DNA of 33,673 bases from Acidobacteriaceae bacterium (GCA_003138955.1 PLHP01000405.1:1-33673); one strand, 5' to 3'. Shown: positions 12,063-33,502, numbered from the stretch's first letter. Notes: generated by a model not told the origin, from the sequence alone. Made by a program: numbers and translations.

Positions 12063-13646
12063 TTAGGGCGCAAGCTCTCCGTTCGGGTCAGGGAGACAGG
12101 ACGCAGCGGCTTCCAGGGACGGCTTTCGGAAGACGCCAGATGGAAGCATTTCCCGCAAAAGCCTCGTGAACTGATTGAGAGGTGCATACCCTCCATGCAG
12201 AAGAATGACCGCAGTCAGATAGAGAACTACGAACAATAACGTGGTCGTCACCATCCGGATCAACGCTCCCTTTGCGCTTGAAGCCGAAACAGTGGACAGT
12301 ATTGCCTTCGCGATGCCCGCGGATGCGCAACCCGCTAACAGGCTCGCAACCAAGTACTTCCAAATAGTTGCCAGCACGGGCGCGAATCCGAATTGGATTG
12401 GCCTTCCCGCATACCAGAACGCGGGTGCTATCAAAACGAAGTAGGAGGTGGTCCAAGCTACGGCTATTCCCTCGGGCCCCCAGCGCAGTCCCGTAATAAG
12501 AAGCAGCACTGTGACCGCAGCCTCTATCAGTCCCCAGCGGAACCATCGGTCCGCCCGTCCGATCGAAAGGTTGATCCAACCGTGGATTTGGTAGAGGATC
12601 ATAATCCCGATTCCGGGGCCGAATAAGGTAAAGATACGTCCCGCCGACTCCCACCCCGGTCCCAGTAAAAGACGAATCAGATCTTTGCCCACTAGGGTCA
12701 GATCAGCACTCAACCCCATACCCACAAAAGCCACCACAGACAGTACGCCAAGAAGATGTTGTCTGTACTTAACGAGGTTCCCCCGGAACCGGCTTAGGGC
12801 GGACACGGCGACGTTCGTGAGGGATGCCGTCGACATGCTCAGCGGAAGGTTAAATAGGTCGTAAGCCTTTTTGTAGAAGCCGAGAGAAGTTGCGCCAAAG
12901 CGCCATCCCACGAGGAGATTGTCCGTATTGTTGGCAAAGTAGTTGGCGGTGAAACGTCCATAAGTGTGCATCGCGAACCGTACCATCGGGCGAGTACCGA
13001 CTCCGCGCCGGGGGCGGCCGGGAACCCATCGACACAACGACCAAGCCCCGATGGATGTGCTAAGCGAAAGTGCGATGGATCCTGCGACCAGAGCCCAGTA
13101 TCCCCAACCTGCCCAGCCGAGAGAGATTGACACGGCCGTCGAAACCAGACGCGCCACCACGTCATTGGCGGACACAACCGAGAACCGCATCGCTCGCTTG
13201 AGTAGGGCCACGTGCTGAACCGAGGTGCTGCTGATGAGGATCGTGACTGACATGCCAACGGCCACGCGCGTTACGCGCGGGTCGCCGTAAAACCGCGCCA
13301 GCAGAGTCCCTGCCGCCGCGAATCCGATTGTCAATAGAAAACCTACCCCTATATTGACCCAGAACAGATTACTGGCCAAGAAATGGTCGATCTCGTCTAC
13401 CTGAAGAATGGCCTCGGTAAATCCGTTTGGACCACAGTTCACAAGAAGCAGGCTGAACAAACTAACCATGCCTATCAGCCCAAAGTCGGCGGGTACGAGG
13501 AGCCGAGCCAAGATCATCGTGGAGATGACTTGGATGGCTAAGCCCGACACTGAGGAGAGCAGTGTGGCCCCGGCGCCTCGAACGGCGCGCCGAGGCACGT
13601 CGTCTGGGTTCAACCGGAACGTGCCCCCGGCATCAAACGGCCTCAA
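12063..13646 (-). CDS. Wzx/WzxC-type polysaccharide flippase (MOP superfamily)
   Basis: This 527-residue membrane protein has about 12-14 hydrophobic segments and the polysaccharide-synthesis transporter pattern: GATLLSSVSGLAIQVISTMI near the N-terminus, ILARLLVPADFGLIGMVSLF, NTDNLLVGWRFGATSLGFYK mid-protein, and SALSRFRGN after it. These match the WzxC/Polysacc_synt_3 branch, which flips undecaprenyl-linked repeat units to the periplasm. The start is a TTG with AGGAGG four bases upstream; no in-frame ATG or GTG near it is better placed. It stands between two secreted beta-helix genes upstream and a GT2 gene downstream. The 230-base gap before it probably carries its own promoter. Confidence 0.92.
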   Translation of the reverse strand: MRPFDAGGTFRLNPDDVPRRAVRGAGATLLSSVSGLAIQVISTMILARLLVPADFGLIGMVSLFSLLLVNCGPNGFTEAILQVDEIDHFLASNLFWVNIGVGFLLTIGFAAAGTLLARFYGDPRVTRVAVGMSVTILISSTSVQHVALLKRAMRFSVVSANDVVARLVSTAVSISLGWAGWGYWALVAGSIALSLSTSIGAWSLCRWVPGRPRRGVGTRPMVRFAMHTYGRFTANYFANNTDNLLVGWRFGATSLGFYKKAYDLFNLPLSMSTASLTNVAVSALSRFRGNLVKYRQHLLGVLSVVAFVGMGLSADLTLVGKDLIRLLLGPGWESAGRIFTLFGPGIGIMILYQIHGWINLSIGRADRWFRWGLIEAAVTVLLLITGLRWGPEGIAVAWTTSYFVLIAPAFWYAGRPIQFGFAPVLATIWKYLVASLLAGCASAGIAKAILSTVSASSAKGALIRMVTTTLLFVVLYLTAVILLHGGYAPLNQFTRLLREMLPSGVFRKPSLEAAASCLPDPNGELAP

Positions 13647-18495: not shown

Positions 18496-19899
18496 TCAGA
18501 CTTCTTCCAGGCACGGAACAACCGGCGGGCTAAGTGGCGCGAGTGCCACACTCTTCCTCGGCTGAATCCGTACCCAGCCCCCGGGAACAGCGACCGCCGC
18601 CAAGAGGAAGAAGATCCATATTGGGTGCATCATCGCGAACGCGGACTCCGTGAAGTTGTAGGCCACGAACACCACAAGATATGCTAACCTGAGGCTGGTC
18701 GAGCGCGAATCCCTGCGCAACGCAGCCACTATATTCTTATAACCGGTCACCAAAACCACAGCCAGCAAAGTAAGTCCCAGCCCCCCCAAGTTCAAGAAAA
18801 CCTCAATATAGCCGTTATGGGCTTGAACTGGGTGCCACCAGTAGATGCTCCAGATCTTTTCCAGCCGTTTCCCCAGCCAGAAACTATCGTAACCGGTACC
18901 GAGCAATGGATTGTGCACCATTCCGAGCACCAATTTCCAGATGTCAGTCCGGCCGGTCAGGGATGGGTCTCTTCCCATCGACTGCACCAAGCCCGAGCCG
19001 AAATTGAGGAACAGTGCGGAAAAGGAAACAGTCAGGATCGCCGCCACCATCAGGTGCACGATCCACGACCGTCGGCCGAAAGCGCGGACATTGGTCGCGA
19101 CAAGCAACGTGACCGCCATTAGGAAACACGAAAAAGAAGTCATCGAATTGGCCAGCCAGAATAGCCAGATGACCATCGCGAGGACGACACCGTGAGCGAT
19201 CAGCGTCCGAGTTCTGTTTCTGCGAGTACCGTGCCGATCACGCAACTCCTCAACGATGCACCACACAGACCCGAGTCCGAGAAGCAGACAAAGATAACCG
19301 AGTTGGTTCTTGTTGGATGTGACTCCAGTGTAAGTAGCCCCCCCCGTGAAAGGACTGTAGCGCCGCCCAAAGTCGGGATAATACTTGATCAATAACACGG
19401 ACGTGGGTATTAAGAGAAAAACCAGCCGCCCCAGGAGTCGCTTGACGGCAGCCAAAATATCCGAATCGGTCAGGACGATCAGGACCATCACCAAGTCACC
19501 CAAAGCCTTAACCCAACGCTTAAAGGAGACGCCACTGTAGTCGGACCAAAGGGCGCTTACGCCACAGTACAAGAAAAAGAGAAGAATCGGAATGTTCGCC
19601 CGCAGCAGCCTGCGGACCCGATGACCTCTCATGAAAAGCACGACTATACCGAACACTACGAGTCCGGTAAACACGAAGCGGTCTAGAGGACTACCGTCAA
19701 GGAGCTGACCGGGGGACATGCTCGAAGCGTCTGTGCCTGCTGCCCCCAGCCACTCCGATACCGGTCGGGATGCGGCGATCCATAACCACACCACGGGTAT
19801 CCAGAGAGCTTTCGAAGTACGCGCCTTTCGGTCACGAGCAAGCAGGAAGAGGCCCATGATACCGAATGCGAACAAAACGGTGGCGTTCTGCGGAGTCAA
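18496..19899 (-). CDS. O-antigen ligase / Wzy-type polymerase family membrane protein
   Basis: This 467-residue protein has 10-12 membrane segments and the Wzy_C/O-antigen-ligase signature. A long periplasmic loop contains SLTGRTDIWKLVLGMVHNPL and LGTGYDSFW, and ends PVQAHNGYIEVFLNLGGLGL, where the H-N-x-Y/F-L motif is diagnostic. An upstream LWSDYSGVSFKRWVKALGD segment is also typical. Such proteins polymerise lipid-linked repeat units or ligate them to an acceptor at the periplasmic face. In a locus with a Wzx flippase, a polymerase role seems the better guess. The start is a TTG at 19899 with only a weak upstream GGAAAG; an in-frame TAG shortly upstream limits alternatives. It lies 35 bases after the asparagine-synthetase-like gene. 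Confidence 0.88.
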   Translation of the reverse strand: MTPQNATVLFAFGIMGLFLLARDRKARTSKALWIPVVWLWIAASRPVSEWLGAAGTDASSMSPGQLLDGSPLDRFVFTGLVVFGIVVLFMRGHRVRRLLRANIPILLFFLYCGVSALWSDYSGVSFKRWVKALGDLVMVLIVLTDSDILAAVKRLLGRLVFLLIPTSVLLIKYYPDFGRRYSPFTGGATYTGVTSNKNQLGYLCLLLGLGSVWCIVEELRDRHGTRRNRTRTLIAHGVVLAMVIWLFWLANSMTSFSCFLMAVTLLVATNVRAFGRRSWIVHLMVAAILTVSFSALFLNFGSGLVQSMGRDPSLTGRTDIWKLVLGMVHNPLLGTGYDSFWLGKRLEKIWSIYWWHPVQAHNGYIEVFLNLGGLGLTLLAVVLVTGYKNIVAALRRDSRSTSLRLAYLVVFVAYNFTESAFAMMHPIWIFFLLAAVAVPGGWVRIQPRKSVALAPLSPPVVPCLEEV

Positions 19900-19934: not shown

Positions 19935-21758
19935 TCATCTCGAGTCCAGAAAAAGGCGGTGCAAAAGTTCCAAAGTTAGTATTTTGTGGATCTCCGTCGT
20001 ATGGTTCCGGTCTCCTTTGGTGTGTCCCCGCACAATCGCTTCGACCGCGCTCCGTTGCAGGTATGGCCGGGACAGTGTTCGCGAATCAAGCAGCATTTCC
20101 CGTATGTATTTTGCGAGGGCATCACGGTACCAGATGCGGAAATGATAAAACTTGTGCCGGCCGAGGAATAGCCGCTCTAAATGAAACGACGAGAAGAGAT
20201 GATCGATTTTCGCCACTGCTTGCGGCATCCCATAATCGTAGGCGTATTCCGCCTTAAACGTGAACTCGAGAAAACTCCGTAAAGCCGCTGCGCGCAGACG
20301 CCCATGGTTGCCAGCCAACCCTCGGTCTGTACGGATCTTCCGGAGTTCGGGGCTGCCATCGGCGATCAAGCGAAGTGAAACGTCGTTGTTCGTAAGCATC
20401 GCTTGCGGCGCGCGGAAAACCGCTCGCACAAAGTCGTTGTCGAGATATGGCGAGCGCAACGAGAGCTGGGTCTGCTCCAGCGCGAGAAGGCCGTAGTGGT
20501 GCCAGGGCGCCTGCCGGAAGACCGCGAATGAAAGCGGGTGGCCGTTCACGAGCGCAGCATAGGTCTGCTTCGCGACTTGGACCTGGGAGAGAAGTTCTGG
20601 AGCGAACAGCCCGGCAGCGGGCTCCTGTGGCTTGAATGCCCGAACCCGGCGTAGTACCTCGCCGCCATAGTTTCCGGTCATCCGGACCGGGGCAATCTTA
20701 GCCGCTTGCTCATTCACGTAAAGATCCGCGGAACGGCTGACGTCAGCACACGCGTCCGTGAGGTACACGGTTCGCTCCGCGTACTGGGGAAAGCGCGTGA
20801 GGAACTCCTCTCCTACTTGGATCACCTCGTGACTTTGTCCGCACGAGCGCGCTACCTCGCGAGCGATGCTGACGTCCTGACAATCGCGAAAAGCCCCCCC
20901 AAAGGAGTAGCAGGGAAGAGTTCCCGGAGGGGAGTCTTGCCACGACATAATAATGCGTGTGTCCAGTCCCCCAGTAAGGGACATGCCAATCCGCTCTTGC
21001 CCGTTAAAGTAGCGAGGCAGATTGCGGGAGAAGACCTCCCGGACCTCACGGTAATAGGATTCCGGCTCCAGCGTGTCTTGTTCCTCCCACACCCGCGGTT
21101 GAAAGTAGCAGGCTTTCTGCTCGATTGAGCCGCCCCGAAGCACCCAAGCCGCGGCCGGTGGGAGCACATGGATGCCCTCGAAGAGCGTCCGGTTCTCCAA
21201 CACACAGCCACAAGCCACCAACTCACCGAGGCCTCGAGCGTCAGCCTGGCGGAGTTCGGGGCGAACGGCCAGGATCGCCTTGGCTTCCGCTGCAAAGTAG
21301 AAAGCCTCGGTCGACTGGTGATAGTAGATCCGATGCATACCGTACCGGTCGTTGAAAAGCGTCCCCGTCCCGCGAGTCCGATCCGTCAGCAGCCCGTGGA
21401 ACCTTCCGTTCAAACCCGCCGGAAACGCAGGGTCCTCCTCGTAGAGGTGAACGAGATAGGAGGCCCTCTTCTCCTCGAGCGTATGACCCCGCTCCTTCAA
21501 GCGGCAAGCGATTCCTGGCTCCGGGTACTCCTCTCCGGAAAAAATAAGACCGATATCTCCCGTTTCGTTGCAGAGTGGCATTCCGTCCGCGAATGATTCC
21601 TTCCGTGCGGCCCACCCCACGTAAACTCCAAGCGACTCATCCGCCCATGTACCCGTGCTGTAGAAAGACTCGTGCCGAACGGACTCGACCATCTTGCACA
21701 CTTCCTGCTCCGCTCGTTGGCGCGGCATTCTTGTGACAAGACCTACGATTCCTGGCAT
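19935..21758 (-). CDS. Asparagine-synthetase-like protein lacking the glutaminase nucleophile
   Basis: The 607-residue protein has the two-domain plan of AsnB. The N-terminal class-II amidotransferase-like domain covers about residues 1-200 (LNGRFHGLL at 116-124, FNDRYGMHRIYYH at 135-147, FAAEAKAIL at 155-163). The C-terminal PP-loop ATP pyrophosphatase domain begins with SLTGGLDTR at 260-268. The protein starts MPGIVG, whereas active glutaminases start M-C-G, so the Cys2 nucleophile is replaced by Pro. It therefore cannot release ammonia from glutamine by the usual route. It may adenylate a carboxylate and couple it to another amine, as beta-lactam synthetase does. AAGGA lies six bases before the ATG and overlaps the stop of the FemAB-like gene, so the two are tightly coupled. 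Confidence 0.88.
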   Translation of the reverse strand: MPGIVGLVTRMPRQRAEQEVCKMVESVRHESFYSTGTWADESLGVYVGWAARKESFADGMPLCNETGDIGLIFSGEEYPEPGIACRLKERGHTLEEKRASYLVHLYEEDPAFPAGLNGRFHGLLTDRTRGTGTLFNDRYGMHRIYYHQSTEAFYFAAEAKAILAVRPELRQADARGLGELVACGCVLENRTLFEGIHVLPPAAAWVLRGGSIEQKACYFQPRVWEEQDTLEPESYYREVREVFSRNLPRYFNGQERIGMSLTGGLDTRIIMSWQDSPPGTLPCYSFGGAFRDCQDVSIAREVARSCGQSHEVIQVGEEFLTRFPQYAERTVYLTDACADVSRSADLYVNEQAAKIAPVRMTGNYGGEVLRRVRAFKPQEPAAGLFAPELLSQVQVAKQTYAALVNGHPLSFAVFRQAPWHHYGLLALEQTQLSLRSPYLDNDFVRAVFRAPQAMLTNNDVSLRLIADGSPELRKIRTDRGLAGNHGRLRAAALRSFLEFTFKAEYAYDYGMPQAVAKIDHLFSSFHLERLFLGRHKFYHFRIWYRDALAKYIREMLLDSRTLSRPYLQRSAVEAIVRGHTKGDRNHTTEIHKILTLELLHRLFLDSR

Positions 21759-21761
21759 CGG

Positions 21762-22679
21762 CTATCCTTCAAAGAGTCTCTCGTTACGGACTGAAAACTT
21801 CCGGTTGTACCAGGATTTCCTAAGGTCGCGGAGCTTGGCCGCCACGGGCTCGGGGAGACGATCGGCGAGCTTGTGGTGCAAGCCGAGCCGGAAGGCCAGC
21901 GAACCGAGCGGAGTCAGCGGAACATAGTAGCGGGGCAAATCGATCTGTTGAAAGCCGTTGTTGCGCTTGAAATCGGCGAGTGTGTCTTGCTGTTTCTTGC
22001 CGTACGTAAAGCCGGCATACACCAGATAGGGGATGCCCCAATCGGCACAGCAGCGCACCGCGTGCGCGACCAAGGCGTTGGTCGGCGCTTTGTCGCGGTG
22101 GCAAACCATCGAGACAATGTTCATCATGCCCGCCTGCGTTCCCGTCCCATCTTGGACTAGCCGGGCAAAACCGATCAGGCTGTCATTGAAATAAGCGCCA
22201 ATAAATACGCTGCTCTCGGGAAAAGTGGCCTCCTCCGCATAAACGGTCCTGATGTCTTTTCCGTAATGGCTGTTCGGCTTGCCCTGGCGGACCGGAGTCT
22301 CGTTATAGATCTCCCAGATTCCCTTCACCAAGGCATCGTCGAAGGCTACTTCCCGCACCACTACTCCCTTCTTCTCCGCCTTCCGGACCATGTTTCGCGT
22401 CTTGGCGTCCACCTGCTTCGTCCACCAATGGTCGAAGGTCGATACCGCCAGGACGGCCAAATTGTCGGGTTCCATGGGATAACGAAACTTGGGTGCAGTC
22501 TCCGGCAGTTTCTGCATGAACGTGAACAGGTCCACTCGGGTTCCACACTTCCGCAGGCCGTCGAGAACCGGCTCCGGGTCGTCCACAAATTGATACTTGT
22601 CGGCATCAAGGCAGGCGATCCGAAGGAGCCTCCCTTGAACCCTGATGTCCCTACCACAACTTTTTATCAATGGATGCAT
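21762..22679 (-). CDS. FemAB/GNAT-like acyltransferase
   Basis: This is 305 residues; GGAAGG is nine bases upstream of the ATG. The central and C-terminal parts have a GNAT-fold pattern like that of FemAB-related proteins in exopolysaccharide loci: WWTKQVDAKTRNMVRKAEKK (a basic helix), SSVFIGAYFNDSLIGFARLV, then APTNALVAHAVRCCADWGIP, and YGKKQQDTLADFKRNNGFQQ. FemAB proteins transfer an aminoacyl group from tRNA, while GNAT enzymes transfer acyl groups from acyl-CoA. The sequence does not decide between them. The stop codon lies inside the ribosome-binding site of the asparagine-synthetase-like gene. The pair may add an amino-acid or acyl substituent to a sugar; this is inference. Confidence 0.78.
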   Translation of the reverse strand: MHPLIKSCGRDIRVQGRLLRIACLDADKYQFVDDPEPVLDGLRKCGTRVDLFTFMQKLPETAPKFRYPMEPDNLAVLAVSTFDHWWTKQVDAKTRNMVRKAEKKGVVVREVAFDDALVKGIWEIYNETPVRQGKPNSHYGKDIRTVYAEEATFPESSVFIGAYFNDSLIGFARLVQDGTGTQAGMMNIVSMVCHRDKAPTNALVAHAVRCCADWGIPYLVYAGFTYGKKQQDTLADFKRNNGFQQIDLPRYYVPLTPLGSLAFRLGLHHKLADRLPEPVAAKLRDLRKSWYNRKFSVRNERLFEG

Positions 22680-22748: not shown

Positions 22749-23654
22749 CTAGTCAGTGACGTATGGATCTTTTATCGGGTTGATACCCGCGAACGCAAGC
22801 AGCTTGCCGAGATGATCAAAAAGCTTAACCAAGAGAGTCAAGAACCGGTGGTACCCTAACATCATCGCAAACGGCAGAGCAACGGTGTAAACTACGGCGG
22901 CCACCAAGGATTTTCCTAGGCTTATTGCGCCAAAGCTCGGTTGCAGCCTTGCCGATGCTCCACGAAGCAACGCTTTCCTTAACATATAGGTAGCTTTCCA
23001 GCGGGCCGGGGAAATCGCCTCATACACCACGGCGTCAGCGGACCAAATGAACTTATGGCCCTTTTCGATCATCCTTCTGAAGAAATCCTGGTCCTCACCG
23101 ACACGGAATTGTGGTCGGAACGGGTGTTCGCCGGCTTCGAAAACCTTCTTGTTCAGGAGCACATTGCCGGATCGTGCCTCCCACCACTTGACAATAGAAC
23201 CTGTCCGATTAACAGGACGCTCGTAGAAGTCGCTCTTAACGATCCAGTTTGGCGGTTCACCATCGAAGTGGCGCTTCACTGGTCCAAGCACCCCATCGAC
23301 CTGATGTTCCTCGCAGGTCTTGAACAAGGTCAGCAGCCAATGGCTCGTCGGAAACTCGTCGTCGTCGATAAGCGCGATGAAATCGCCGCTGGCGTTTTCG
23401 ATCGCCTTGTTGCGCGCTAGCGCGATGCCCTGCCGCGGCTCGACGCAGTACGTGATCGGGATGCTCCGCTGCGCGGCAAAATCCAACACTGCGGCTTTTG
23501 CAGATTGCAGTTCATCATTGTCGGCCACCACGATTGAAAAAGTGAATAGGCCATGCGTATCCTGGCCTGCAAGTTCCGTCAACAAACGTTGCAGACACTG
23601 GGGTCGCTTATAAGTGCAAACGCAGACACATATGTGATCCGTCTCTTTTGGCAT
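22749..23654 (-). CDS. Family 2 glycosyltransferase
   Basis: This 301-residue GT-A enzyme opens CVCVCTYKRPQCLQRLL (residues 9-25). It has VVADNDE at 42-48, EPRQGIALARNKAIENA at 72-88 and the metal-binding IDDDE at 96-100. FRVGEDQDFFRRM carries the ED-D acid motif seen in many GT2 catalytic sites. Two hydrophobic stretches near the C-terminus (AAVVYTVALPFAMMLGY, KLLAFAGI) suggest membrane association. It likely adds a sugar to the lipid-linked repeat unit. There is no strong ribosome-binding site before the ATG. It is 69 bases upstream of the FemAB-like gene. Confidence 0.9.
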   Translation of the reverse strand: MPKETDHICVCVCTYKRPQCLQRLLTELAGQDTHGLFTFSIVVADNDELQSAKAAVLDFAAQRSIPITYCVEPRQGIALARNKAIENASGDFIALIDDDEFPTSHWLLTLFKTCEEHQVDGVLGPVKRHFDGEPPNWIVKSDFYERPVNRTGSIVKWWEARSGNVLLNKKVFEAGEHPFRPQFRVGEDQDFFRRMIEKGHKFIWSADAVVYEAISPARWKATYMLRKALLRGASARLQPSFGAISLGKSLVAAVVYTVALPFAMMLGYHRFLTLLVKLFDHLGKLLAFAGINPIKDPYVTD

Positions 23655-23782: not shown

Positions 23783-24922
23783 CTAGGCTTCAACAACACT
23801 CACAGCCGCCTGAATAGATCTCTCGCCTTGATGTCGAATCTGCGTGGCCTGAGAATCGAGATGAGCAAAGATGTCGTCCATAATTCTGGCCGTGAGCAAA
23901 ATCTCCCGGTACGAGATCGGCAGCGGAGTATCTTCCCGGATGGATCGGTAGAAGGACTCGATCAAGTACTTCATTCCGGATTTCATGTGGAAATCATTGG
24001 CCAAAAAACTCCCCAGGTTGGTCTTCAGATTTCCACAGTACTGCGCGGCCATGGTAACGGGCGGAACGAACTTCTCAACGTAGCTTTTGTACCGGACGCC
24101 GCGAAGTTTGATCAGGGTCTCCTGATGAAGATCAAGCATCAAACCGTTCTTCGGACCGTAAAGGCGAAACTGATGAAGCGCGGGCCGCATCTGGGAGGAG
24201 AAGGTGAAATATGCGGTGCGATACTCCTCGTCGCAAACGATGACCCTCAATTCATCGATGATCTCGTTTTCGCCAAGATTTTTCAGAAAAGGGCTGGTAA
24301 AACCATGGGCGATGACCTGGGGCGCTGCCCCGCTCAGAAATTCCGCAATTCTGGCGATACCATGACTGATGATGTTATGCAGCAATTTCCCTGGCAGTCT
24401 GCGCACCCAGTGTTTCTTATCGCCCAGAAGCGCTCCCGCGTAGTCGGAAGCCCCCATCTCATAGCAGTAATAGCTCTCCATATGCACCGGCGCGCCGCCC
24501 AGAAACCCGCTCTCGGCCAGCGCGCGCATACGCCGGGCGGCGTGGCTGAATTGATGATCGTGTCCTGCCGTTAGCTTGAGCCCTTTTTCGTTGGCCAGGT
24601 CGATCAGTCTTCGGGCATCGTCTTCGCAGAGCGTGAATGGCTTCTCGACATAAACATGGCATCCCGATTCCAGGCAAAGCCGGGCAATCTCGAAGTGGCT
24701 TTGCGGCGGCGTTGTGATGTGAATCACGTCGGGACGCGATTTTTCCAGAAGTTCGCTCAAATCACCAAAATGCTGTCGGATTGGAAACCGCTCATAAAGC
24801 TGCCGCGCCATCAGCGGCTCCCGATCGCAGACCCCAACGATCTCGCAATCTGGAATTCTCCCGATTTGCGCGGCGTGCGAATCCGCGATCTTTCCGCAGC
24901 CTACGATGCCGATCTTAAGCAT
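23783..24922 (-). CDS. Gfo/Idh/MocA-family sugar oxidoreductase
   Basis: This is a 379-residue NAD(P)-dependent dehydrogenase. The N-terminal Rossmann fold reads IGIVGCGKIADSHAAQI (residues 4-20), DVIHITTPPQSHFEIA follows, and the family motif VEKPF is at 92-96. GHDHQFSHAARRMRALAESG starts the C-terminal alpha/beta substrate domain. Members oxidise or reduce a ring or side-chain hydroxyl of free or nucleotide-linked sugars. The substrate is unknown. Its ATG overlaps the end of the methyltransferase gene by eight bases. The locus has a second such enzyme at the right edge (33503-33673). Confidence 0.9.
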   Translation of the reverse strand: MLKIGIVGCGKIADSHAAQIGRIPDCEIVGVCDREPLMARQLYERFPIRQHFGDLSELLEKSRPDVIHITTPPQSHFEIARLCLESGCHVYVEKPFTLCEDDARRLIDLANEKGLKLTAGHDHQFSHAARRMRALAESGFLGGAPVHMESYYCYEMGASDYAGALLGDKKHWVRRLPGKLLHNIISHGIARIAEFLSGAAPQVIAHGFTSPFLKNLGENEIIDELRVIVCDEEYRTAYFTFSSQMRPALHQFRLYGPKNGLMLDLHQETLIKLRGVRYKSYVEKFVPPVTMAAQYCGNLKTNLGSFLANDFHMKSGMKYLIESFYRSIREDTPLPISYREILLTARIMDDIFAHLDSQATQIRHQGERSIQAAVSVVEA

Positions 24923-25604
24923 GGATTTTTCCGAACTCTTCGCTTTCGGAGTCGCGAGTCAACCCCTCGCCGGCCTTGCTCTTCGGGCGGAACACAATTA
25001 CTGTGGGCCCGTTCTCGCCATATTGGTTCTTCTCTACGACGTCGAAGTCGGCGTCCATAACGCCCACAATCGCCGCCAGTCTCGGTTTATGACCGCCCTT
25101 ACCATCCGTAGTATTCATTCTCACGATGAATACGCCGCCATTTTTCAGATACTTTGAGAAGTGATCGAGTATCGGTCTGACCTTGGCGGGCGGCACATGG
25201 TACATGGATTCCCGGAACAAGATCACATCAAACTGCTGGGTCGGCCGGTAGCCGAGGAAATCCGAGCAGGCGAAGCTATTCTTGCCGCCGCGGCCGTTTT
25301 CATCGGTTCGCTTCCTCGCCTTGGCCAGGGCTGCCTCGGATATATCCACGCCCACGTAGGTTGTGTAAGAAGTCGCTGCCAATTCATTCGCGGTATTGCC
25401 TGGTCCGCACCCGAGATCGAGGATGCTGCCGCCCTGAAGGTGTTTTTCCAGGTGCGGGTAGACACAGTCGCCCGCCGTATCGTCGATGAAATCCCAATGG
25501 GTCCCGGAGAATTCCTGATCCCACAGGATCATCTTGATCTTGGACGGGCCATACCTTTTGAGAAGCGCCCGCATAATAGTTAGAGTTCGTTCTGCTATAT
25601 ACAT
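24915..25604 (-). CDS. Class I SAM-dependent methyltransferase
   Basis: This is 229 residues; an AGGAG-rich ribosome-binding site lies just before the ATG. Motif I is ILDLGCGPGN (61-70), followed by YVGVDISEAALAKARKR as the acidic second strand. FDVILFRESMYHVPP is motif IV-like and LKNGGVFIVRMNT is motif VI-like. The overall form is that of Methyltransf_11/25 enzymes that methylate sugars or small molecules. It probably O- or N-methylates a sugar of the repeat unit, but the target cannot be read from the sequence. It overlaps the following Gfo/Idh/MocA gene by eight bases, so coupling is likely. Confidence 0.88.
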   Translation of the reverse strand: MYIAERTLTIMRALLKRYGPSKIKMILWDQEFSGTHWDFIDDTAGDCVYPHLEKHLQGGSILDLGCGPGNTANELAATSYTTYVGVDISEAALAKARKRTDENGRGGKNSFACSDFLGYRPTQQFDVILFRESMYHVPPAKVRPILDHFSKYLKNGGVFIVRMNTTDGKGGHKPRLAAIVGVMDADFDVVEKNQYGENGPTVIVFRPKSKAGEGLTRDSESEEFGKIHA

Positions 25605-25696: not shown

Positions 25697-26797
25697 CTAG
25701 ACGCGCCCCGCCCCACAACTTTCGAAATAGCGCTTGAGCCCCTCTGCCATGCCGATTTTTGGGGCCCACCCGAGTTCAGTCTTGAGCTTGCGGTTGCTGT
25801 ATCGGGTTCTCTTCCAGTACCGGTGCCACAGCCTGCGGTTAAAAACCGGCTCGAGCTGTCCTTCGGACCACGTCGAATACCGTTCCCATAAGTAGCAGCC
25901 CGTGTAACTCAACCAGTGAGGAACATAAATCGATTTGAAGCTCCTGACGCTCCGTTTATAGGAACGCAAGAATTGCCAACTGGAAGGCAAATCGTCATCC
26001 ACGATATTGAACGCTTGTCCCTCGATGCCGGTCTTGAGCCCAGCCAGCGCAATCGCCTCTGCACAGTTATCAACATAGGTGATGGGCAGTTGATTGAAGC
26101 CGCCCAAATGCATGAAGATACCAAATGTGCCGATCCCCACGCGGCCCGTAATGGCTGGATTCCCGGGACCAATGACATATCCTGGGCGAACGATCACGTA
26201 TGGGATGCTAAACCGGCTGCAGCAATCCGCGACGATTTCGTCTTGTTTGATTTTTGCAAAAGAGTAGGCATCTCCACAGAGTTCTGGCTGTGATTCGATC
26301 GAGCACGACTCGTCGAGCAGACTCCCCTCGGGTTTCTGGCGGTTGCTATAGACCGCAAACGAACTGACGTTCACAAAACGTCTCAGGCATCGGTGTTCGG
26401 CGCTCGCTTCGAGAAGATTCCGGGTGGCGACGACCGAGTTCATGTAGGCATCGGGGACCGACTTTTCGCCTCTGCCCGCGGCCAAATGAAAGATGAGCCT
26501 TACATTTCCAGTCGCGGCGGCGCAATCCTCACGCGATAGCAGGTTCCCCGTGATCAATTGAATGCGCGAATCGCCCGGGTGGTCCCGCAAAGCTTCGAGC
26601 TTCGACGCTTTGCTTGAGAACCTCGTTAAACAACGCAAATTCCGAAACCCCTTATCCAGCAGATTCTTAACGAGGCGTGTACCAATAAAGCCGCTCGCTC
26701 CGGTTATCAGAATCGGCTCCTCCGAGTCGAACAGCCAAGACTCGGCTTGTGAGTAGCGCCCGTTCCCGCTGCTATCAATAGTGTTAGTGTTTTGCAT
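25697..26797 (-). CDS. NAD-dependent epimerase/dehydratase (extended SDR)
   Basis: This 366-residue extended SDR has the NAD-binding GASGFIG at 33-39 after a 25-residue N-terminal extension. LIFHLAAGRGE follows at 101-111, then the active-site Ser region FVNVSSFAVY (141-150) and Tyr178/Lys182 of YSFAK. VRPGYVIGPGN follows at about residue 200. The residues expected for catalysis are all present. It should epimerise, dehydrate or reduce a nucleotide sugar. The RCLTRFSSKASKLEAL stretch, typical of one-domain SDRs acting on bulky substrates, leaves a different substrate possible. The ATG has no strong ribosome-binding site. It is 92 bases before the methyltransferase. Confidence 0.88.
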   Translation of the reverse strand: MQNTNTIDSSGNGRYSQAESWLFDSEEPILITGASGFIGTRLVKNLLDKGFRNLRCLTRFSSKASKLEALRDHPGDSRIQLITGNLLSREDCAAATGNVRLIFHLAAGRGEKSVPDAYMNSVVATRNLLEASAEHRCLRRFVNVSSFAVYSNRQKPEGSLLDESCSIESQPELCGDAYSFAKIKQDEIVADCCSRFSIPYVIVRPGYVIGPGNPAITGRVGIGTFGIFMHLGGFNQLPITYVDNCAEAIALAGLKTGIEGQAFNIVDDDLPSSWQFLRSYKRSVRSFKSIYVPHWLSYTGCYLWERYSTWSEGQLEPVFNRRLWHRYWKRTRYSNRKLKTELGWAPKIGMAEGLKRYFESCGAGRV

Positions 26798-26837: not shown

Positions 26838-27731
26838 TCAAGCGCGCATTCGAAGGGTCTTGCCGGTTAGAAATTCCTTCAATCGCTGCATCTGCTCACG
26901 TCTGGCGAACCTTGTCATCTCCTCGGAAACAGGCCGGTGCTCGCCGCGCACCGACGACCAGGTATAGCCCATCAGCAAGGCAAGTCCTCCGATGATGAAG
27001 GGCGCCTTCGTCATCTGGTACAAAGTTCTAAACAACTCCCAAATAGGATGGCTTCCGACAGCGTAGTCCTTGGCACCGTCTTTAAACCTCGCCTTTAGGA
27101 TGCCTTGCTGAGCTGTGCTCATCTGGCGATGGTGGAAATACGTCTTTTCCGTGAATGTCCTGGTTTTCCATCCCTTCATCCTTGCAGCAATGTTCGCAAT
27201 ACGGTCGATCGCCCCACCCTTCGCCGCGACATATCCGCCGATGTCCTCAAAACACTTCCGACGGAACAGTTGGCAAATGCCGGTTACGTGCTCGATGCTC
27301 ACGAAGCGATAGTCGTAGGTTGAACTTGTAGATTCCTTAAACGCGGTTCCGACCAGGCCCAGCGTGGAATCTTCAGCGAGCTTCTGCAACAGGAAAGCAA
27401 AGTGGTCAGGGTCGAACGAAGCGTCGCCATCCACGCAACCAATGGCGTCGTGCTCCAGATCCTTTACCTTCGCATAACCGGCACTAAAAGCGAGAACCTT
27501 GCCCGCGAAATTCCTCTCCTGACGCTCGGGCATGCGCAAGAGCTCAATCCAGGAATTATCGGCGGCATACTTGCGGACCAACTCGTCGGTGCCGTCGGTC
27601 GAGCCGTCGCTCACAATCACCCACCTTAGTGGCCGGACAGTTTGCGCCACCACCGACTTCAGGGTGAGTTCAATGTACTGCGCTTCATTTCGCGCCGGCG
27701 TGATCAGAACATATTTCGGCAGGGTCAGCAT
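26838..27731 (-). CDS. Family 2 glycosyltransferase
   Basis: I use the ATG at 27731, which overlaps the end of the previous gene by seven bases and begins MLTLPKYVLITPARNEA; the 63 extra residues in the track ORF are an antisense-like extension. The 297-residue protein has SDGSTDGT at 41-48, DGDASF at 101-106 (the metal-binding DxD), and GGAIDRIANIAARMKGW further on. FRTLYQMTKAPFIIGGLALL is a likely membrane-associated segment near the C-terminus. It should add a sugar during repeat-unit assembly. The overlap with the toroid-protein gene indicates translational coupling. Confidence 0.9.
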   Translation of the reverse strand: MLTLPKYVLITPARNEAQYIELTLKSVVAQTVRPLRWVIVSDGSTDGTDELVRKYAADNSWIELLRMPERQERNFAGKVLAFSAGYAKVKDLEHDAIGCVDGDASFDPDHFAFLLQKLAEDSTLGLVGTAFKESTSSTYDYRFVSIEHVTGICQLFRRKCFEDIGGYVAAKGGAIDRIANIAARMKGWKTRTFTEKTYFHHRQMSTAQQGILKARFKDGAKDYAVGSHPIWELFRTLYQMTKAPFIIGGLALLMGYTWSSVRGEHRPVSEEMTRFARREQMQRLKEFLTGKTLRMRA

Positions 27732-29014
27732 GCATTCACCAAAGTTTTCCGATTCTGGGCTGGCCGCCCCTCCACCGGGGTTGAAAGGCCGAGAAGCCGG
27801 GACAACGCCAGCAGCATCCACGCCTGCGACCATCTCATATACGAGGTGCGAATCGTGCACAGACGAAGCACTCGATAGTAGAAAAAGCCGCGATCGTCCC
27901 ACATGTTTGTTATCGCCCACCGGAACACGCGCTGCGCCAACTCGATGTTGGTGGAATCCAGGTCCTTGAATGCCAGCAGCGTGATGATGCTTTGCGCTAC
28001 GCAGTGAATGTCCAGGGGATAAACTCGGTCGTGGAAGTACTTGGGCGCCGCATCCTCGCGAAAGAAGTTGGCACGGTAGAACTCAAACCCGCTTCGCATG
28101 CTGACGTCGAATTCGTCAGTCCCCAAATCGCGACCAATCGCCCGCAGCGCGCCGAGGTTGTATCCGGTGTGAAAGTTGTCGATCCAGCGCTGCGAGGAGT
28201 GCTCGCCGTAAAACCACGACCCGTCCGGCCGTTGCTTCCCCACCGCTTGGCGCGCGACTCGAAGAGCGGGTTCCCGGAACTTCTTCTCGCCGGTGTGCTT
28301 GTACACGCGGCACAACAAAGCCGCCGCCAGCAAATTGGCGTTATGGGTTTCGCCGCGCAGTCCGGGCATCGGATAGCTGAAGCCGGCCTTGGCGCCGTCA
28401 GCCCAATACAGTTCATTCAAGATGTATTCGGCCGCACCCACCGCCATCTTCAAGCAACGCTCATCTTGCTGTTGGTCGTCCGCGTGCTGCTCATAAGCAT
28501 CGAGCAACGCGCCGGCAACGAAGGTTGTGCAGACCAGATTTGGCGCACCGGCGGGCACCAGAATGTTTCGTCCCTGCCACGGAAAGCTGTAGCCCCACGA
28601 CCAATAAGAAATTCCTGATGAGCGCAGCGTTACCAGGCGGTCGATCATGTAGCGCATAAGTTCTTCGCGGCCGCCCACAACTGCATCCGGGAGTTTGAGC
28701 AGCGCCGAGAGAAATAGCGCCATCGCTTTCGGGTTTTGAGTTTTCGGAACCAGCGCCAAGCGACGAACATTTACCGGGCTGCGCTTCAAAACCTGAGTGA
28801 GTGCGAGACGAGGAAGCCTGTAATCCAAAAACGGTAACGCTTTGAACAGTCCGCTATTTAAGGCATCGTAGGGATCGTAGCCCGCCCAATCATTCTCCCG
28901 GCAGTATGCCAAAAGCTTCCGTGCGGTCGCTTCAACATCGCCGCTCGCGGAGTACCGAGATTCTGACAGCCCAGTTGCGGCCGGCGCCTGCTGCAAAGTC
29001 ATAGTTGAATCCAT
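27725..29014 (-). CDS. Alpha-helical toroid protein, VpsJ-like polysaccharide biosynthesis protein
   Basis: The ATG at 29014 shares its A with the TGA of the preceding gene (TGATG), so I prefer it to the TTG one codon upstream; the product has 429 residues. It has helical-hairpin repeats that look like an (alpha/alpha) barrel: GISYWSWGYSFPWQGRNILV, APNLVCTTFVAGALLDAYEQ, ETHNANLLAAALLCRVYKHT, RPDGSWFYGEHSSQRWIDNF and HTGYNLGALRAIG. Such folds occur in glycoside hydrolases, lyases and uronyl epimerases. The family is found in biofilm-polysaccharide loci, where its biochemical role is not settled. There is no signal peptide. With UDP-sugar dehydrogenase, DUF354 and GT2 genes it forms a compact group. 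Confidence 0.72.
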   Translation of the reverse strand: MDSTMTLQQAPAATGLSESRYSASGDVEATARKLLAYCRENDWAGYDPYDALNSGLFKALPFLDYRLPRLALTQVLKRSPVNVRRLALVPKTQNPKAMALFLSALLKLPDAVVGGREELMRYMIDRLVTLRSSGISYWSWGYSFPWQGRNILVPAGAPNLVCTTFVAGALLDAYEQHADDQQQDERCLKMAVGAAEYILNELYWADGAKAGFSYPMPGLRGETHNANLLAAALLCRVYKHTGEKKFREPALRVARQAVGKQRPDGSWFYGEHSSQRWIDNFHTGYNLGALRAIGRDLGTDEFDVSMRSGFEFYRANFFREDAAPKYFHDRVYPLDIHCVAQSIITLLAFKDLDSTNIELAQRVFRWAITNMWDDRGFFYYRVLRLCTIRTSYMRWSQAWMLLALSRLLGLSTPVEGRPAQNRKTLVNAC

Positions 29015-30132
29015 CAATTTGCCGGCTGGGCGCGGACACCCCGGGAAACCGCCATTTCAATATGTTGGATAATCGTCTCGAGTGCGGGCACGTGCGGTTG
29101 GGCCAACCCATCTGCCGATTTCTGCCGGCGTACAGCGATTATCTTACTTTGAACATCTTCGACACTCGTCAGCAGGACCAAGCGACCATTGTCCGCGAGG
29201 TACTGATCGACGGCTCCGATCTTCCCGCGAAAGATGCTGTAGACCGGAACTTGCAGGGCCGCCGCCTCGCGATTCATCGTGCCGCCGCCGCTAATGACAA
29301 GATCTGAGTTCCAAATCAGATTCATGCCGTCTTCCACGTGATCAGGGATCACGATCTTATTCGCGGCAATGGCTTCACGCCACTCCGCTCTCAATTTGTC
29401 CTCCTGGCGTTTGTTTCTCGGCAGAAGAATGATCGTCGTCTCCGGGCTGGGCACAAACCGGTCGAGCGCTGCTTTCAATAGAACTTCAGCCTCGGGATTG
29501 TGATAATGCGCTTCCGTAGCCGGAGGACGAATCGTAATCAGCAATGATGCCGGAGGAATTCGAAGACGGCTCTTCAATTTCGGGTCAGGTTTAAATCTGC
29601 CCAGATATACATCTTCCTTGATGCCAGGGTACTTCAAAATTTCTGGCCCGCCGTCCTTCAAATGCGCATCGGGAACAACGCTTGGGTAAACCAGCCAAGT
29701 CGGTCTAACCGAGGGCACGTTGGCTGTGAACTCGTAGTCACCGATTGTAAGGTTCGGTATCTTTAATACCTTGGATGCCATCAAGCACCCACGCGACCCG
29801 TGACAGACTGAGATGTCTGGTTTCTCCTTCCTCACCATGGCGATCAAAACCACGGCTCGCCAGCAGGTCCCTAGCGCTTTCAGGGTTTTGTGCTTGCCGT
29901 AATGTTTTCCGATGACTTTTCCCTCCACCCCGTAATATTCCAAGAGTTCGCGCACTTGGTACGCGTCCCGGGCGGTGACAAACAAGTCATAACCTCTGGC
30001 CTTAAGTTCGTCGATGATCGGGCGGAAAAAAGGTACATGCGGAGAATTGTCCAAATCGATCCAAATCTTCTTGCGCGGCAACGAACGTTTCACTTTTGGT
30101 GCTTTTAACATAGCTTTAGCTGGGCTGCACAT
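29014..30132 (-). CDS. DUF354 family protein (GT-B-like fold)
   Basis: This is up to 372 residues, with a possible shorter start at 30111; neither start has a clear ribosome-binding site. The N-terminus KIWIDLDNSPHVPFFRPIID is the hallmark of DUF354. CHGSRGCLMASKVLKIPNLT, IGDYEFTANVP and the SGGGTMNREAAALQVPVYSI segment near residue 290 are the parts that resemble the nucleotide-sugar-binding half of GT-B enzymes and UDP-GlcNAc 2-epimerases. The family is recurrent in bacterial and archaeal surface-glycan loci, and its reaction is not established. A glycosyltransferase or epimerase acting on the UDP-sugar made next door is plausible. Confidence 0.85.
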   Translation of the reverse strand: MCSPAKAMLKAPKVKRSLPRKKIWIDLDNSPHVPFFRPIIDELKARGYDLFVTARDAYQVRELLEYYGVEGKVIGKHYGKHKTLKALGTCWRAVVLIAMVRKEKPDISVCHGSRGCLMASKVLKIPNLTIGDYEFTANVPSVRPTWLVYPSVVPDAHLKDGGPEILKYPGIKEDVYLGRFKPDPKLKSRLRIPPASLLITIRPPATEAHYHNPEAEVLLKAALDRFVPSPETTIILLPRNKRQEDKLRAEWREAIAANKIVIPDHVEDGMNLIWNSDLVISGGGTMNREAAALQVPVYSIFRGKIGAVDQYLADNGRLVLLTSVEDVQSKIIAVRRQKSADGLAQPHVPALETIIQHIEMAVSRGVRAQPAN

Positions 30133-30207: not shown

Positions 30208-31635
30208 TCAGGCCAGACTTTCCTGTACGTCTTTGTCGGCCTGAGCCGACCGGTATTCCTTCCCGTCCGCGACCGCAGTTGGAGACGGCACGGCACCGGC
30301 CCGGCCGACGCTGATATAGCGAAACCCGTGACCGCTGATTTCCTCGGGACTGAACATGTTCCGGCCATCGATGACCAGCGGCTGTTCGACCATCGACAGC
30401 AATCTTTTCCAGTCCAGGTGCCGGAACTCCTCCCATTCGGTGACGATCAGAATGGCGTCCGCGCCTTGCGCGGCCTGATAGGCGTCGGCACAGTACGTAA
30501 TGTTGGGAAGGACCGCCTTCGCCTTTTCGGCCGCTACCGGGTCATAGGCGCTCACGCTCGCGCCTTCATCCAGCAATGATTTTGCCAGGGCGATAGCCGG
30601 TGCGAAACGCACATCGTCGGTGTTGGGTTTGAAGGCAAGACCCCAAATTGCGACCTTCTTGCCGCGGACCACCCACAGTTCCCCTTGAATCTTCTCTACG
30701 AATTGCTTAACTCGGTGCTGGTTGATCTTATCGACCTCTCTTAGTAAGGAAAAATCACAGCGTGACTTCTCTGCGATCCTGATGAATGCCTGCACATCTT
30801 TCGGAAAGCAAAACCCGCCAAAACCGATGCCGGGATTTAGGAACGCCGGGCCGATACGCGGATCCAGTCCCATGCCCTGCGCTACTTTGGTTACGTCCGC
30901 TCCCACTGCCTCGCACAGATCGGCAACCATGTTGATGAACGATATTTTCATGGCCAGGAAGGAATTGGAGGCATGTTTGATCAGTTCGGCCGAACTGGTA
31001 TCGGTCACCAGGAAGACAGGATCCTTACACTTCGGGCAATCCGAATGCACAGGGCAGGTGAATTCCTGCGCGATAACGGGCTCATAGATCTCGCGCAGCA
31101 GTTGTGCGGCCCGCGCCGAGTTGACCCCCACCACAATCCTGTCAGGGTGCAAGAAATCCTCGACCGCCGAGCCTTCGCGCAAGAACTCGGGATTCGAGGC
31201 GACGTCGTAGTCCAAACCGTTCGTACTGAGCACCGATAGGTATCTGCTTAACTGCGCCCCGGTCTGGACCGGTACCGTGCTCTTTTCTATCACCAGGCGA
31301 TAACCCGATGCACGCTTGGCGATCGCCCGAGCGACTCCCTCAATGGCAGACAAATCCGCATCGCCGTTGGCGAGTGGCGGCGTGCCGACGCAGATAAAGA
31401 TGGCGCGACCCCAATCGATTGCTTCCCCGGCCGAGCCAAAGTGGAGACGGGCCGCCTTTCGTGCAATTTCGATGACTTTCTCGAGATGGGGCTCGAAGAG
31501 AGGCATGACGCCGCTCTGCAGCTTGGAAAGCTTATCGCTATCGCTCTCAGCGCAGAAGACGTCATGGCCGATTTGGGCTAGGCATGCGGCGGTCGTGAGT
31601 CCGACATAACCGGCGCCAATAACTGAGATTTTCAT
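30208..31635 (-). CDS. UDP-glucose/UDP-sugar 6-dehydrogenase
   Basis: I start at the ATG at 31635 (MKISVIGAGYVGLTTAACLA), giving 475 residues; the 19 extra residues of the track ORF break the usual start. The NAD site is GAGYVG (7-12). FICVGTPPLANGDADL and EKSTVPVQTG follow, then FLREGSAVEDFLHPDRIVVG. The catalytic site is GFGGFCFPKD (271-280) with Cys276. It oxidises a UDP-hexose at C6 to a UDP-uronic acid. The sequence looks closer to UDP-glucose than to UDP-GlcNAc dehydrogenases, but that is a judgement from memory. Unusually, an insert at about 192-204 carries three Cys (TCPVHSDCPKCKDP). The C-terminal 30 residues are low-complexity. Confidence 0.92.
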   Translation of the reverse strand: MKISVIGAGYVGLTTAACLAQIGHDVFCAESDSDKLSKLQSGVMPLFEPHLEKVIEIARKAARLHFGSAGEAIDWGRAIFICVGTPPLANGDADLSAIEGVARAIAKRASGYRLVIEKSTVPVQTGAQLSRYLSVLSTNGLDYDVASNPEFLREGSAVEDFLHPDRIVVGVNSARAAQLLREIYEPVIAQEFTCPVHSDCPKCKDPVFLVTDTSSAELIKHASNSFLAMKISFINMVADLCEAVGADVTKVAQGMGLDPRIGPAFLNPGIGFGGFCFPKDVQAFIRIAEKSRCDFSLLREVDKINQHRVKQFVEKIQGELWVVRGKKVAIWGLAFKPNTDDVRFAPAIALAKSLLDEGASVSAYDPVAAEKAKAVLPNITYCADAYQAAQGADAILIVTEWEEFRHLDWKRLLSMVEQPLVIDGRNMFSPEEISGHGFRYISVGRAGAVPSPTAVADGKEYRSAQADKDVQESLA

Positions 31636-31722
31636 TTTGTTAGCTTCTCTCCGGAGGTCAGCTTGTGAGTCCCTATGGACTTGCTCATACAATCTTTTCC
31701 GCGGACGCCAAAGCGAACGCGG

Positions 31723-32937
31723 TCAGACACGGCTCGCGTGGGTAAGCCGGCCCTTCTCAAAGCGGACCATCTCTTCTGCAACCCGCCCCTGTTGCTCGGC
31801 AGTGAGATTCGGAAACATGGGTAAAGAGACAATCTGGCTCGCGACTTTCTCGGTCACCGGAAAATCTCCCGCTTTGTATCCCAGGGATTCGTAAGCCCGC
31901 TGCTGGTGCAGCGGAATCGGATAGTGAATGCCGGTGCCGATGCCCGCCTTGCCCAGATGCGCCATCAGGCCCTCGCGATCCCGTGTCCGCACCACATACA
32001 GATGATAGACCGCACGCGACCAAGAGGGTTCATAAGGCGTCTCGACTCCTCCCTCGGACGCTGCAAACAGACGGTTGTACTCCGCCGCTTTTTCGCGCCG
32101 TTTCGCGTTCCAGCCGGCCAGGTGTTTCAATTTCACGCTCAGGATTCCGGTCTGGATCGCATCGAGACGCCCGTTGTATCCCTCGATATCGTGGTAGTAT
32201 TTTTTCGCCTGGCCATGATCCCGGATCATTTTGCAGGTATCCGCCAACCGCGCGTCATTCGTGGTGATGGCGCCACCTTCGCCGCAAGCTCCCAGATTTT
32301 TCCCGGGATAAAAGCTGAACGCGCCCGCACGTCCCATCGAACCCGCCTGAAACCAGCGGTTCTGTTTGCGCGAGAAATATTCGGCCCCGTGTGCCTGGCA
32401 TGCGTCTTCCACCACCAGCAGCCCATACTGCTCCGCCAGTTCCAGAATCGCGTCCATATCCGCCATCTGCCCATAGAGGTGAACCGGGACAACGGCTGCG
32501 ACCGGCCGCTTGCTCCTTTTGCTGATGAGCTTGCCGGTCTCGGATACCGTGCAGTGCGCTTCCAGATACTCGCGCAGTTTGGCGGCATCCATGTTGTAGG
32601 TGCGCTCGTCGATGTCGACGAACTCCGGCAGTGCCCCCGCCTGGGAAATGGCTTCGGTCGTCGCTATAAACGTGTTCGGAACCGTTACCACCGCGTCGCC
32701 CGCTTTCACGCCGGCTGCCATCAGTGCGAAACGGAGCGCGTCCGTACCGCTGCTGACTGCGACCGCACGTTCGGTGTGGCAGAAGGCGGCAAACTCTTTT
32801 TCAAATGCCTCCACCATGGGACCGCCGATGAATCCCGCGCTGCGGATTACCTGTTGAAAAACCGCGGTCAGCTCCGGTTCGAGCTCGAGGTGCGGTGTGA
32901 CCAGATCAAGGAATGGAATATTTTGCGAATGATTCAA
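31723..32937 (-). CDS. DegT/DnrJ/EryC1/StrS-family sugar aminotransferase
   Basis: This 404-residue PLP enzyme has the PLP-binding features VSSGTDALRFAL (61-72), VVEDACQAHGA (175-185, with Asp178), and the catalytic Lys213 in SFYPGKNLGACGEGGA. NGRLDAIQTGIL and YHLYVVR are further family motifs. Such enzymes transaminate a keto-sugar nucleotide, usually from glutamate. The start is a TTG: its TTGA overlaps the stop of the acyltransferase gene, and GGAGGT lies six bases upstream. With the acyltransferase and the oxidoreductase upstream it forms a WbpB-D-E-like set that would make an N-acylated 3-amino sugar nucleotide. Confidence 0.93.
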   Translation of the reverse strand: MNHSQNIPFLDLVTPHLELEPELTAVFQQVIRSAGFIGGPMVEAFEKEFAAFCHTERAVAVSSGTDALRFALMAAGVKAGDAVVTVPNTFIATTEAISQAGALPEFVDIDERTYNMDAAKLREYLEAHCTVSETGKLISKRSKRPVAAVVPVHLYGQMADMDAILELAEQYGLLVVEDACQAHGAEYFSRKQNRWFQAGSMGRAGAFSFYPGKNLGACGEGGAITTNDARLADTCKMIRDHGQAKKYYHDIEGYNGRLDAIQTGILSVKLKHLAGWNAKRREKAAEYNRLFAASEGGVETPYEPSWSRAVYHLYVVRTRDREGLMAHLGKAGIGTGIHYPIPLHQQRAYESLGYKAGDFPVTEKVASQIVSLPMFPNLTAEQQGRVAEEMVRFEKGRLTHASRV

Positions 32938-33425: not shown

Positions 33426-33502
33426 AAAAGTTGTCTCACAATCCGCTGCATGCATTCTGCTGGGCTGGGCGACCGCGGAGACTGCCAGCAGCCTGGGCAG
33501 AG

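Follow-up and report, generated by a model that had tools for sequence, protein, structure and literature searches.

The window analyzed here is a stretch of 33,673 nucleotides from an Acidobacteriaceae bacterium (GCA_003138955.1, PLHP01000405.1:1-33673). On its minus strand lie two adjacent genes, one encoding a relative of asparagine synthetase (AsnB-like) and the other a FemAB-like protein, which an original prediction made from the sequence alone had read as a coupled system that could form an amide on a glycan sugar. The features of the pair are as follows.

19935-21758, minus strand: AsnB-like protein of 607 amino acids (P0001), comprising a dead class-II glutaminase domain and a PP-loop synthetase domain (Pfam, AlphaFold2, Foldseek)
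20658-20678, minus strand: TGNYGGE, residues 361-367 of the AsnB-like protein, opposite SGEGSDE of Escherichia coli AsnB in the alignment
20961-20975, minus strand: PP-loop TGGLD, residues 262-266 of the AsnB-like protein, conserved position by position in 36-38 of 39 full-length copies
21753-21758, minus strand: start codon and second codon of the AsnB-like gene, ATG CCA, giving Met-Pro in place of Met-Cys
21762-21770, minus strand: GAAGGATAG, ribosome-binding site of the AsnB-like gene, in which the TAG stop codon of the FemAB-like gene also lies
21762-22679, minus strand: putative FemAB-like double-GNAT aminoacyltransferase of 305 amino acids (P0002) with an F237-K238 motif (weak PF02388 and TIGR03019 matches, AlphaFold2, Foldseek)

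Both open reading frames are present as the original prediction had described them, and the particulars on which it was built can be read directly. The AsnB-like protein begins MPGIVG, with MPG rather than MCG, and keeps TGGLD within the stretch SLTGGLDT; at the junction of the two genes (CTTTGAAGGATAGCCGATGCCA), the stop codon of the FemAB-like gene (21762-21764) lies inside the ribosome-binding site, with three bases between it and the ATG of the AsnB-like gene at 21758.

The AsnB-like protein has the GATase_7 and Asn_synthase domains of Pfam, and the glutaminase is lost throughout its clade, which a branch with 100/100 support separates from the rest of a maximum-likelihood tree. Pro2 is found in all 49 copies that were read (41 with readable N-termini and eight more), none of which keeps Cys2; the clade begins Met-Pro-Gly, and the Val that raw translation shows in two copies stands for a GTG start. 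Positions 49, 74, 98, 348 and 351 are given in what we take to be the residue numbers of E. coli AsnB, mapped by alignment. The glutamine contacts Cys2, Arg49, Asn74 and Asp98 are all replaced across the clade, which has no RRL motif, SGE for NGE, and no SDTE. In contrast, AsnB paralogues from related genomes retain RRL, NGE, SDTE and SGGxDS, and 16 of 17 of them start with MCG, as do three of the four paralogues in the genome of the window itself, the start of the fourth being not resolved. The family is under purifying selection: the ratio of nonsynonymous to synonymous substitution (dN/dS) is approximately 0.1 among pairs of 74-86% identity (Nei-Gojobori; a rough value, with dS of about 0.8 and above), which argues against decay, and on this ground pseudogene decay of the family was ruled out. 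Single copies are broken, one in G279 and another, in G018, that is split over frames. The AsnB-like protein should be incapable of using glutamine, as was originally proposed. Literature searches turned up nothing specific on a Cys-less AsnB in polysaccharide loci.

The AsnB-like and FemAB-like genes form a conserved module. Among 61 relatives, 13 genomes have both genes and 48 have neither (Fisher p = 1.5e-13), where FemAB-like matches were counted at E <= 1e-10 and AsnB orthologues at no less than 57% identity, the next AsnB matches dropping to 30% identity or less. In a survey of 297 genomes of the phylum, the AsnB clade is present in eight and the FemAB-like gene in five, all of them among the eight; one of the three genomes with AsnB alone is cut by a contig end and the other two carry ATP-grasp ligases in place of FemAB. 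Across 84,980 species scanned, 42 further loci were found, mostly in Acidobacteriota and Nitrospira, together with one in Syntrophorhabdus, one in Beijerinckiaceae, and a few whose labels name other phyla but which cluster with those of Acidobacteriota. Of the 43 loci made up by these and the window, 40 have the FemAB-like gene beside or near the AsnB-like gene, and two of the three exceptions start inside AsnB at a contig end; the coupling that had been read from the overlap in the window is thus borne out elsewhere. Where the FemAB-like gene comes first (33 loci), the gap is 3-183 nucleotides and no more than 17 nucleotides in 19. In Nitrospira the gene order is reversed, with one or more genes between the two in two of five loci, and the association has therefore survived rearrangement. 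The homologues come nearly all from metagenome-assembled or draft genomes, and some taxon labels are doubtful. One record, 'Bordetella parapertussis isolate HRS-HS12-bin-180' (L067 whole, L094), is 100% identical, gene by gene over approximately 19 kb, to a genome of the window's class, and its assignment to that species is almost certainly mistaken.

An ATP-grasp ligase takes the place of the FemAB-like protein beside AsnB in three cases. Two genomes that lack FemAB have a TupA-like ATP-grasp gene directly before AsnB (L089:10078-11007 and L090:6364-8217, with two in tandem in L090), and AsnB is followed in both by a Wbp-type set, with genes for DegT, Gfo/Idh, an acetyltransferase and a sugar transferase; the AsnB frame of one of the two contains two stops. 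The third case is Syntrophorhabdus, where the two AsnB copies are preceded by different genes, one by ATPgrasp_ST and the other by FemAB. ATP-grasp enzymes are commonly amide-forming ligases, and what stays the same across these loci therefore seems to be the pairing of this AsnB with some enzyme for attaching an amino acid or a similar group.

Sequence comparison gives the FemAB-like label little weight and fold search gives it much more. The protein scores 20.1 bits against PF02388 (cut-off 24) and 19.6 bits, well below the cut-off of 260.35, against TIGR03019 (VimA related); its C-terminal half resembles acetyl-coenzyme A (acetyl-CoA) GNATs as much as FemAB, and FemX is absent from its sequence-search matches to solved structures, being found by fold search only. 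The AlphaFold2 model (predicted local distance difference test, pLDDT, 88.1) has the double-GNAT fold of FemABX-type transferases, and is closest to transferases that depend on aminoacyl-transfer RNA (aminoacyl-tRNA). Foldseek lists Sbb17/Sba18 (E = 9e-13 to Sbb17), FemX (E = 1e-9 to 1e-10, with template modeling scores, TM-scores, of approximately 0.55-0.6), and then FemA, MprF and acetyl-CoA GNATs, and all ten best matches are aminoacyl-tRNA-dependent enzymes. Two of the three Sbb17/Sba18 entries matched are in complex with streptothrisamine, an amino-sugar compound. F237-K238 is invariant in 25 FemAB-like sequences; K238 may be equivalent to Lys305 of FemX, and the motif would fit the Phe-Lys pair Phe328 and Lys329 of DhpH-C (PMC12945691). 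In L014, L015 and L016 (G013:C151:2547-4492), a full FemAB-like gene is followed by a second, split FemAB-like match and then by AsnB.

The AlphaFold2 model of the AsnB-like protein (pLDDT 90.6) has the AsnB superfamily fold, a GATase-II-like domain plus a PP-loop synthetase domain, in keeping with its Pfam domains; the best Foldseek matches are TsnB9 (7ylz), E. coli AsnB (1ct9), human ASNS, and beta-lactam and carbapenam synthetases (1jgt among them). The PP-loop reads TGG[LV]D[TSG] in every copy except one (K263/D264/G266) and two with Ala263, and G263, G264 and D266 are each kept in 36-38 of 39 copies. Downstream, the segment TGNYG[GSDQ]E puts Asn opposite Glu348 and Gly, Ser, Asp or Gln opposite Asp351; most of the 39 copies keep neither Glu348 nor an acidic magnesium ligand at Asp351, with the proviso that the alignment could be off by one residue. 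A shift of one residue is a possibility, in which Tyr364 would be the catalytic Tyr of beta-lactam synthetase and Glu367 would be Asp351, but the alignment and the start of a helix in the model favor the ungapped reading. Glu367 is retained in 37 of 39 copies and, judged by spacing, may correspond to the Glu of a Glu-Tyr dyad that is important in a related AsnB-like enzyme (PMC13060819). To the extent that aligned residues tell, the synthetase site is changed, not erased. Adenylation is likely but unproved, because the site is altered and one copy is broken, and the original statement that the protein can probably still activate a carboxylate is accordingly less secure, even with a PP-loop kept in nearly all copies. 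The broken copy is the second of Syntrophorhabdus (L087:12122-13837), which has SKDLG at the PP-loop and Val at 367; the first copy, behind the ATPgrasp_ST gene, is intact.

The loci are exopolysaccharide or O-antigen-type clusters. The neighboring genes are mechanically called open reading frames that were clustered by BLAST and checked against Pfam on representatives only; those of the window are listed below, the Wbp names referring to the Wbp/Vim pathway to which the system is compared at the end.

9456-10835, minus strand: possible CE4-like deacetylase (HDVE motif only, by inspection; no Pfam match)
12063-13646, minus strand: Wzx-type flippase (by inspection; conserved cluster in 17-21 loci)
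18496-19899, minus strand: O-antigen ligase or Wzy_C-type membrane protein, next downstream of the pair (PF04932; 37 of 43 loci)
22749-23654, minus strand: family-2 glycosyltransferase, next upstream of the pair (PF00535; family-2 transferase cluster in 34 loci)
23783-24922, minus strand: Gfo/Idh-type sugar dehydrogenase dependent on nicotinamide adenine dinucleotide (NAD) (PF01408; 24 of 43 loci)
24915-25604, minus strand: S-adenosylmethionine methyltransferase (Pfam)
25697-26797, minus strand: NAD-dependent epimerase/dehydratase (Pfam; 16 of 43 loci)
30208-31692, minus strand: uridine diphosphate (UDP)-sugar 6-dehydrogenase, which makes a uronic acid (best solved relatives are UDP-glucose dehydrogenases)
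31723-32937, minus strand: DegT sugar aminotransferase, WbpE-like (solved relatives include 7b0d, QdtB and WbpE)
32934-33620, minus strand: left-handed beta-helix N-acetyltransferase, WbpD-like (relatives 4mzu, 7s3u and QdtC)

The ligase, family-2 glycosyltransferase, Gfo/Idh, epimerase and flippase genes around the pair agree with the role in a glycan locus that had been proposed. The last three genes listed lie at the end of the window, where the contig stops, and the WbpD-like gene is 77% identical to a gene adjoining the Wbp-type set in the locus L092. Genes of the WbpB, WbpD and WbpE types occur together in 13 of 43 loci and in 11 of the 20 that are full-length, and YdjC occurs in 15 of those 20. 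Some of the Wbp/Vim-like genes (WbpA/B/D/E-type) are present in the window, and in the genome G015 the full set is contiguous, in the order sugar transferase, Gfo/Idh, beta-helix acetyltransferase, DegT, UDP-sugar dehydrogenase, glycosyltransferase, YdjC deacetylase, epimerase, Gfo/Idh, FemAB, AsnB, ligase. Two further conserved genes were observed: one at 27725-29017 of the window, of 413-430 amino acids, with no Pfam or NCBIfam match and present in 14 loci, and one of 556 amino acids with no Pfam match (L078:5469-7139), which in Nitrospira loci lies either between the AsnB and FemAB genes or close to them. Positions 1-440 of the window hold, by eye, a remnant like the end of an IS3-type transposase at the contig edge.

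The pair probably modifies an acidic sugar of a cell-surface polysaccharide by attaching amino acids or other amines to it. A tentative model, plausible though held with somewhat more doubt than belief, is that it forms two amides, the FemAB-like protein aminoacylating a sugar amine and the AsnB-like protein making the second amide without glutamine. The FemAB-like protein would transfer an amino acid from aminoacyl-tRNA to an unblocked amino group of an amino-uronic sugar. In many loci the adjacent Wbp-type set would build this sugar and a deacetylase would expose its amine; fold, motif and precedent point to this step. The AsnB-like protein would then adenylate a carboxylate, most simply the C6 carboxyl of the uronic acid, and join it to an amine not supplied by glutamine; a small amine could serve, as could the amino group of the attached amino acid. 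The second step is the weaker of the two, and the AsnB half is less sure because the canonical magnesium-binding Asp is mostly lost and the catalytic Glu and Tyr positions differ. Several observations weigh against the model. The residue at the Glu348 position is N363 in 36 of 39 AsnB-like copies, that at the magnesium-ligand position Asp351 is Gly, Ser or Gln (366) in 35 of 39, and the clade has not retained the Tyr of the Glu-Tyr dyad; the Syntrophorhabdus copy described above has no PP-loop even though it lies behind a FemAB gene; in one proteobacterial locus, neither a FemAB nor an ATP-grasp gene was found to accompany AsnB; approximately half of the full-length loci show no complete Wbp-type set in the sequence available; and the closest solved relatives of the UDP-sugar dehydrogenase in the window use UDP-glucose, which leaves room for a sugar other than the 2,3-diamino one of the Wbp/Vim pathway. 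The interpretation originally given to the pair is upheld in part, for the loss of the glutaminase, the coupling and the glycan locus. Of the conditions named as refuting it, two were checked, retention of Cys2 by homologues and rarity of adjacency in other genomes, and neither held.

The strongest rivals to two-amide formation are that the AsnB-like protein is an ammonia-dependent uronamide synthetase and that it is a pseudo-enzyme partner. As an ammonia-dependent enzyme, it would make a plain uronamide as WbpS does on a comparable Porphyromonas sugar (PMC7468200), and the FemAB-like protein would add an amino acid separately; PesC, a related AsnB-like enzyme, takes ammonia in place of glutamine (PMC13060819). 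This is unlikely, as every copy, across several phyla, has Pro2 strictly fixed and the entire glutamine pocket lost, a pattern easier to account for if the nucleophile has changed, an enzyme using free ammonia would presumably seldom meet enough substrate, and the match to TIGR03108 (the WbpS family) is far below the cut-off (89.9 versus 816.9 bits). It is rather doubtful that the AsnB-like protein has given up adenylation to serve as a scaffold, chaperone or sugar-binding partner for the FemAB-like protein or a glycosyltransferase: such a role would suit the loss of the glutaminase, Glu348 and Asp351 and the presence of a copy with a broken PP-loop directly behind FemAB, but G263, G264, D266 and Glu367 are nearly always kept, and the sole copy with a broken PP-loop also has Val367, a coincidence to be expected if the active site is preserved in the others.

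A different doubt concerns the FemAB-like protein, which might be an ordinary acyl-CoA N-acyltransferase of the amino sugar, so that the pair would yield an N-acyl uronamide without amino acids. The closeness of its C-terminal half to acetyl-CoA GNATs and the modest TM-scores to FemX would allow this, but it is improbable when none of the ten best fold matches is other than an aminoacyl-tRNA-dependent enzyme, the Phe-Lys pair does not vary, and the three replacements by ATP-grasp ligases fit amino-acid addition and not acylation. Closer to the two-amide model, and likewise improbable, is that the AsnB-like protein works as a synthetase of glycan lactams or cross-links, joining the amine of the amino acid added by FemAB or ATP-grasp to the uronic carboxyl; if so, the product would be a bicyclic sugar or an amide-cross-linked polysaccharide, with chemistry like that of beta-lactam synthetase performed on a surface sugar. 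Confirmation of the two-amide model would give a role to a family that databases know only by general asparagine-synthase domains, and would predict a chemically unusual polysaccharide in common soil bacteria. The module makes the question testable with two purified proteins.

Beta-lactam and carbapenam synthetases have an AsnB fold and a dead glutaminase, and use an amine instead of glutamine-derived ammonia. The AsnB-like protein matches them structurally (1jgt, 1mb9, 1q15) and shares the dead glutaminase, but it is not close to them in sequence, belongs to a polysaccharide locus and not an antibiotic locus, has Asn at their catalytic Tyr, and has Gly, Ser or Gln at most magnesium-ligand positions. 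The FemAB-like protein shares the double-GNAT fold of Sbb17/Sba18, BD-12 Orf11 and FemX (9wqx, 9wqy, 4ii9; PMC12945691), its own family has a conserved Phe-Lys motif, and the acceptor of the streptothricin enzymes is an amino sugar, as proposed here; identity is approximately 15%, however, and their substrates are antibiotics or peptidoglycan. XrtA/PEP-CTERM exopolysaccharide loci (TIGR03108, TIGR03019) likewise contain AsnB-family and FemAB-family genes, but both proteins of the window fall under the family cut-offs. An exosortase is present in 13 of the 13 pair-bearing genomes and 47 of the 61 relatives overall; a specific link was considered and nothing specific was found, since most relatives without the pair carry an exosortase too. 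In six genomes, the contig with the pair also encodes a second type of exosortase at a distance of 17-45 kb (G015:C10, G008:C14, G010:C86, G039:C3, G040:C29 and G047:C111), and this type occurs in relatives that lack the pair as well.

Among described systems, the nearest is the Wbp/Vim pathway of Porphyromonas gingivalis and Tannerella forsythia, in which a di-amino uronic sugar has an acetyl group removed by VimE, then receives Ser or Gly from VimA, and is converted into a uronamide by WbpS; the aminoacylated uronic sugars hold proteins on the cell surface, and the authors suspected wider use (PMC7468200). The two systems have in common a FemAB-like aminoacyl transferase and an AsnB-family amidotransferase in a surface-polysaccharide setting, with a UDP-sugar dehydrogenase, Gfo/Idh, DegT aminotransferase, beta-helix acetyltransferase and a deacetylase. 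Membership in TIGR03108/WbpS or TIGR03019/VimA is ruled out by score, and several of the same genomes have a separate VimA-like TIGR03019 relative, which also speaks against the FemAB-like protein being VimA. The suggestion of an unrecognized decoration system is tempered by the pairing of VimA with WbpS in the Wbp/Vim pathway, but the families differ: WbpS is an ordinary AsnB, going by TIGR03108, whereas the AsnB here is a separate Cys-less family, and the FemAB here is not TIGR03019 and is encoded next to it. Like Wbp/Vim, the module combines an aminoacyl transferase with a relative of AsnB, here drawn from other families and found in Acidobacteriota, Nitrospira and a few other groups, in which the glutamine half of AsnB is uniformly disabled.

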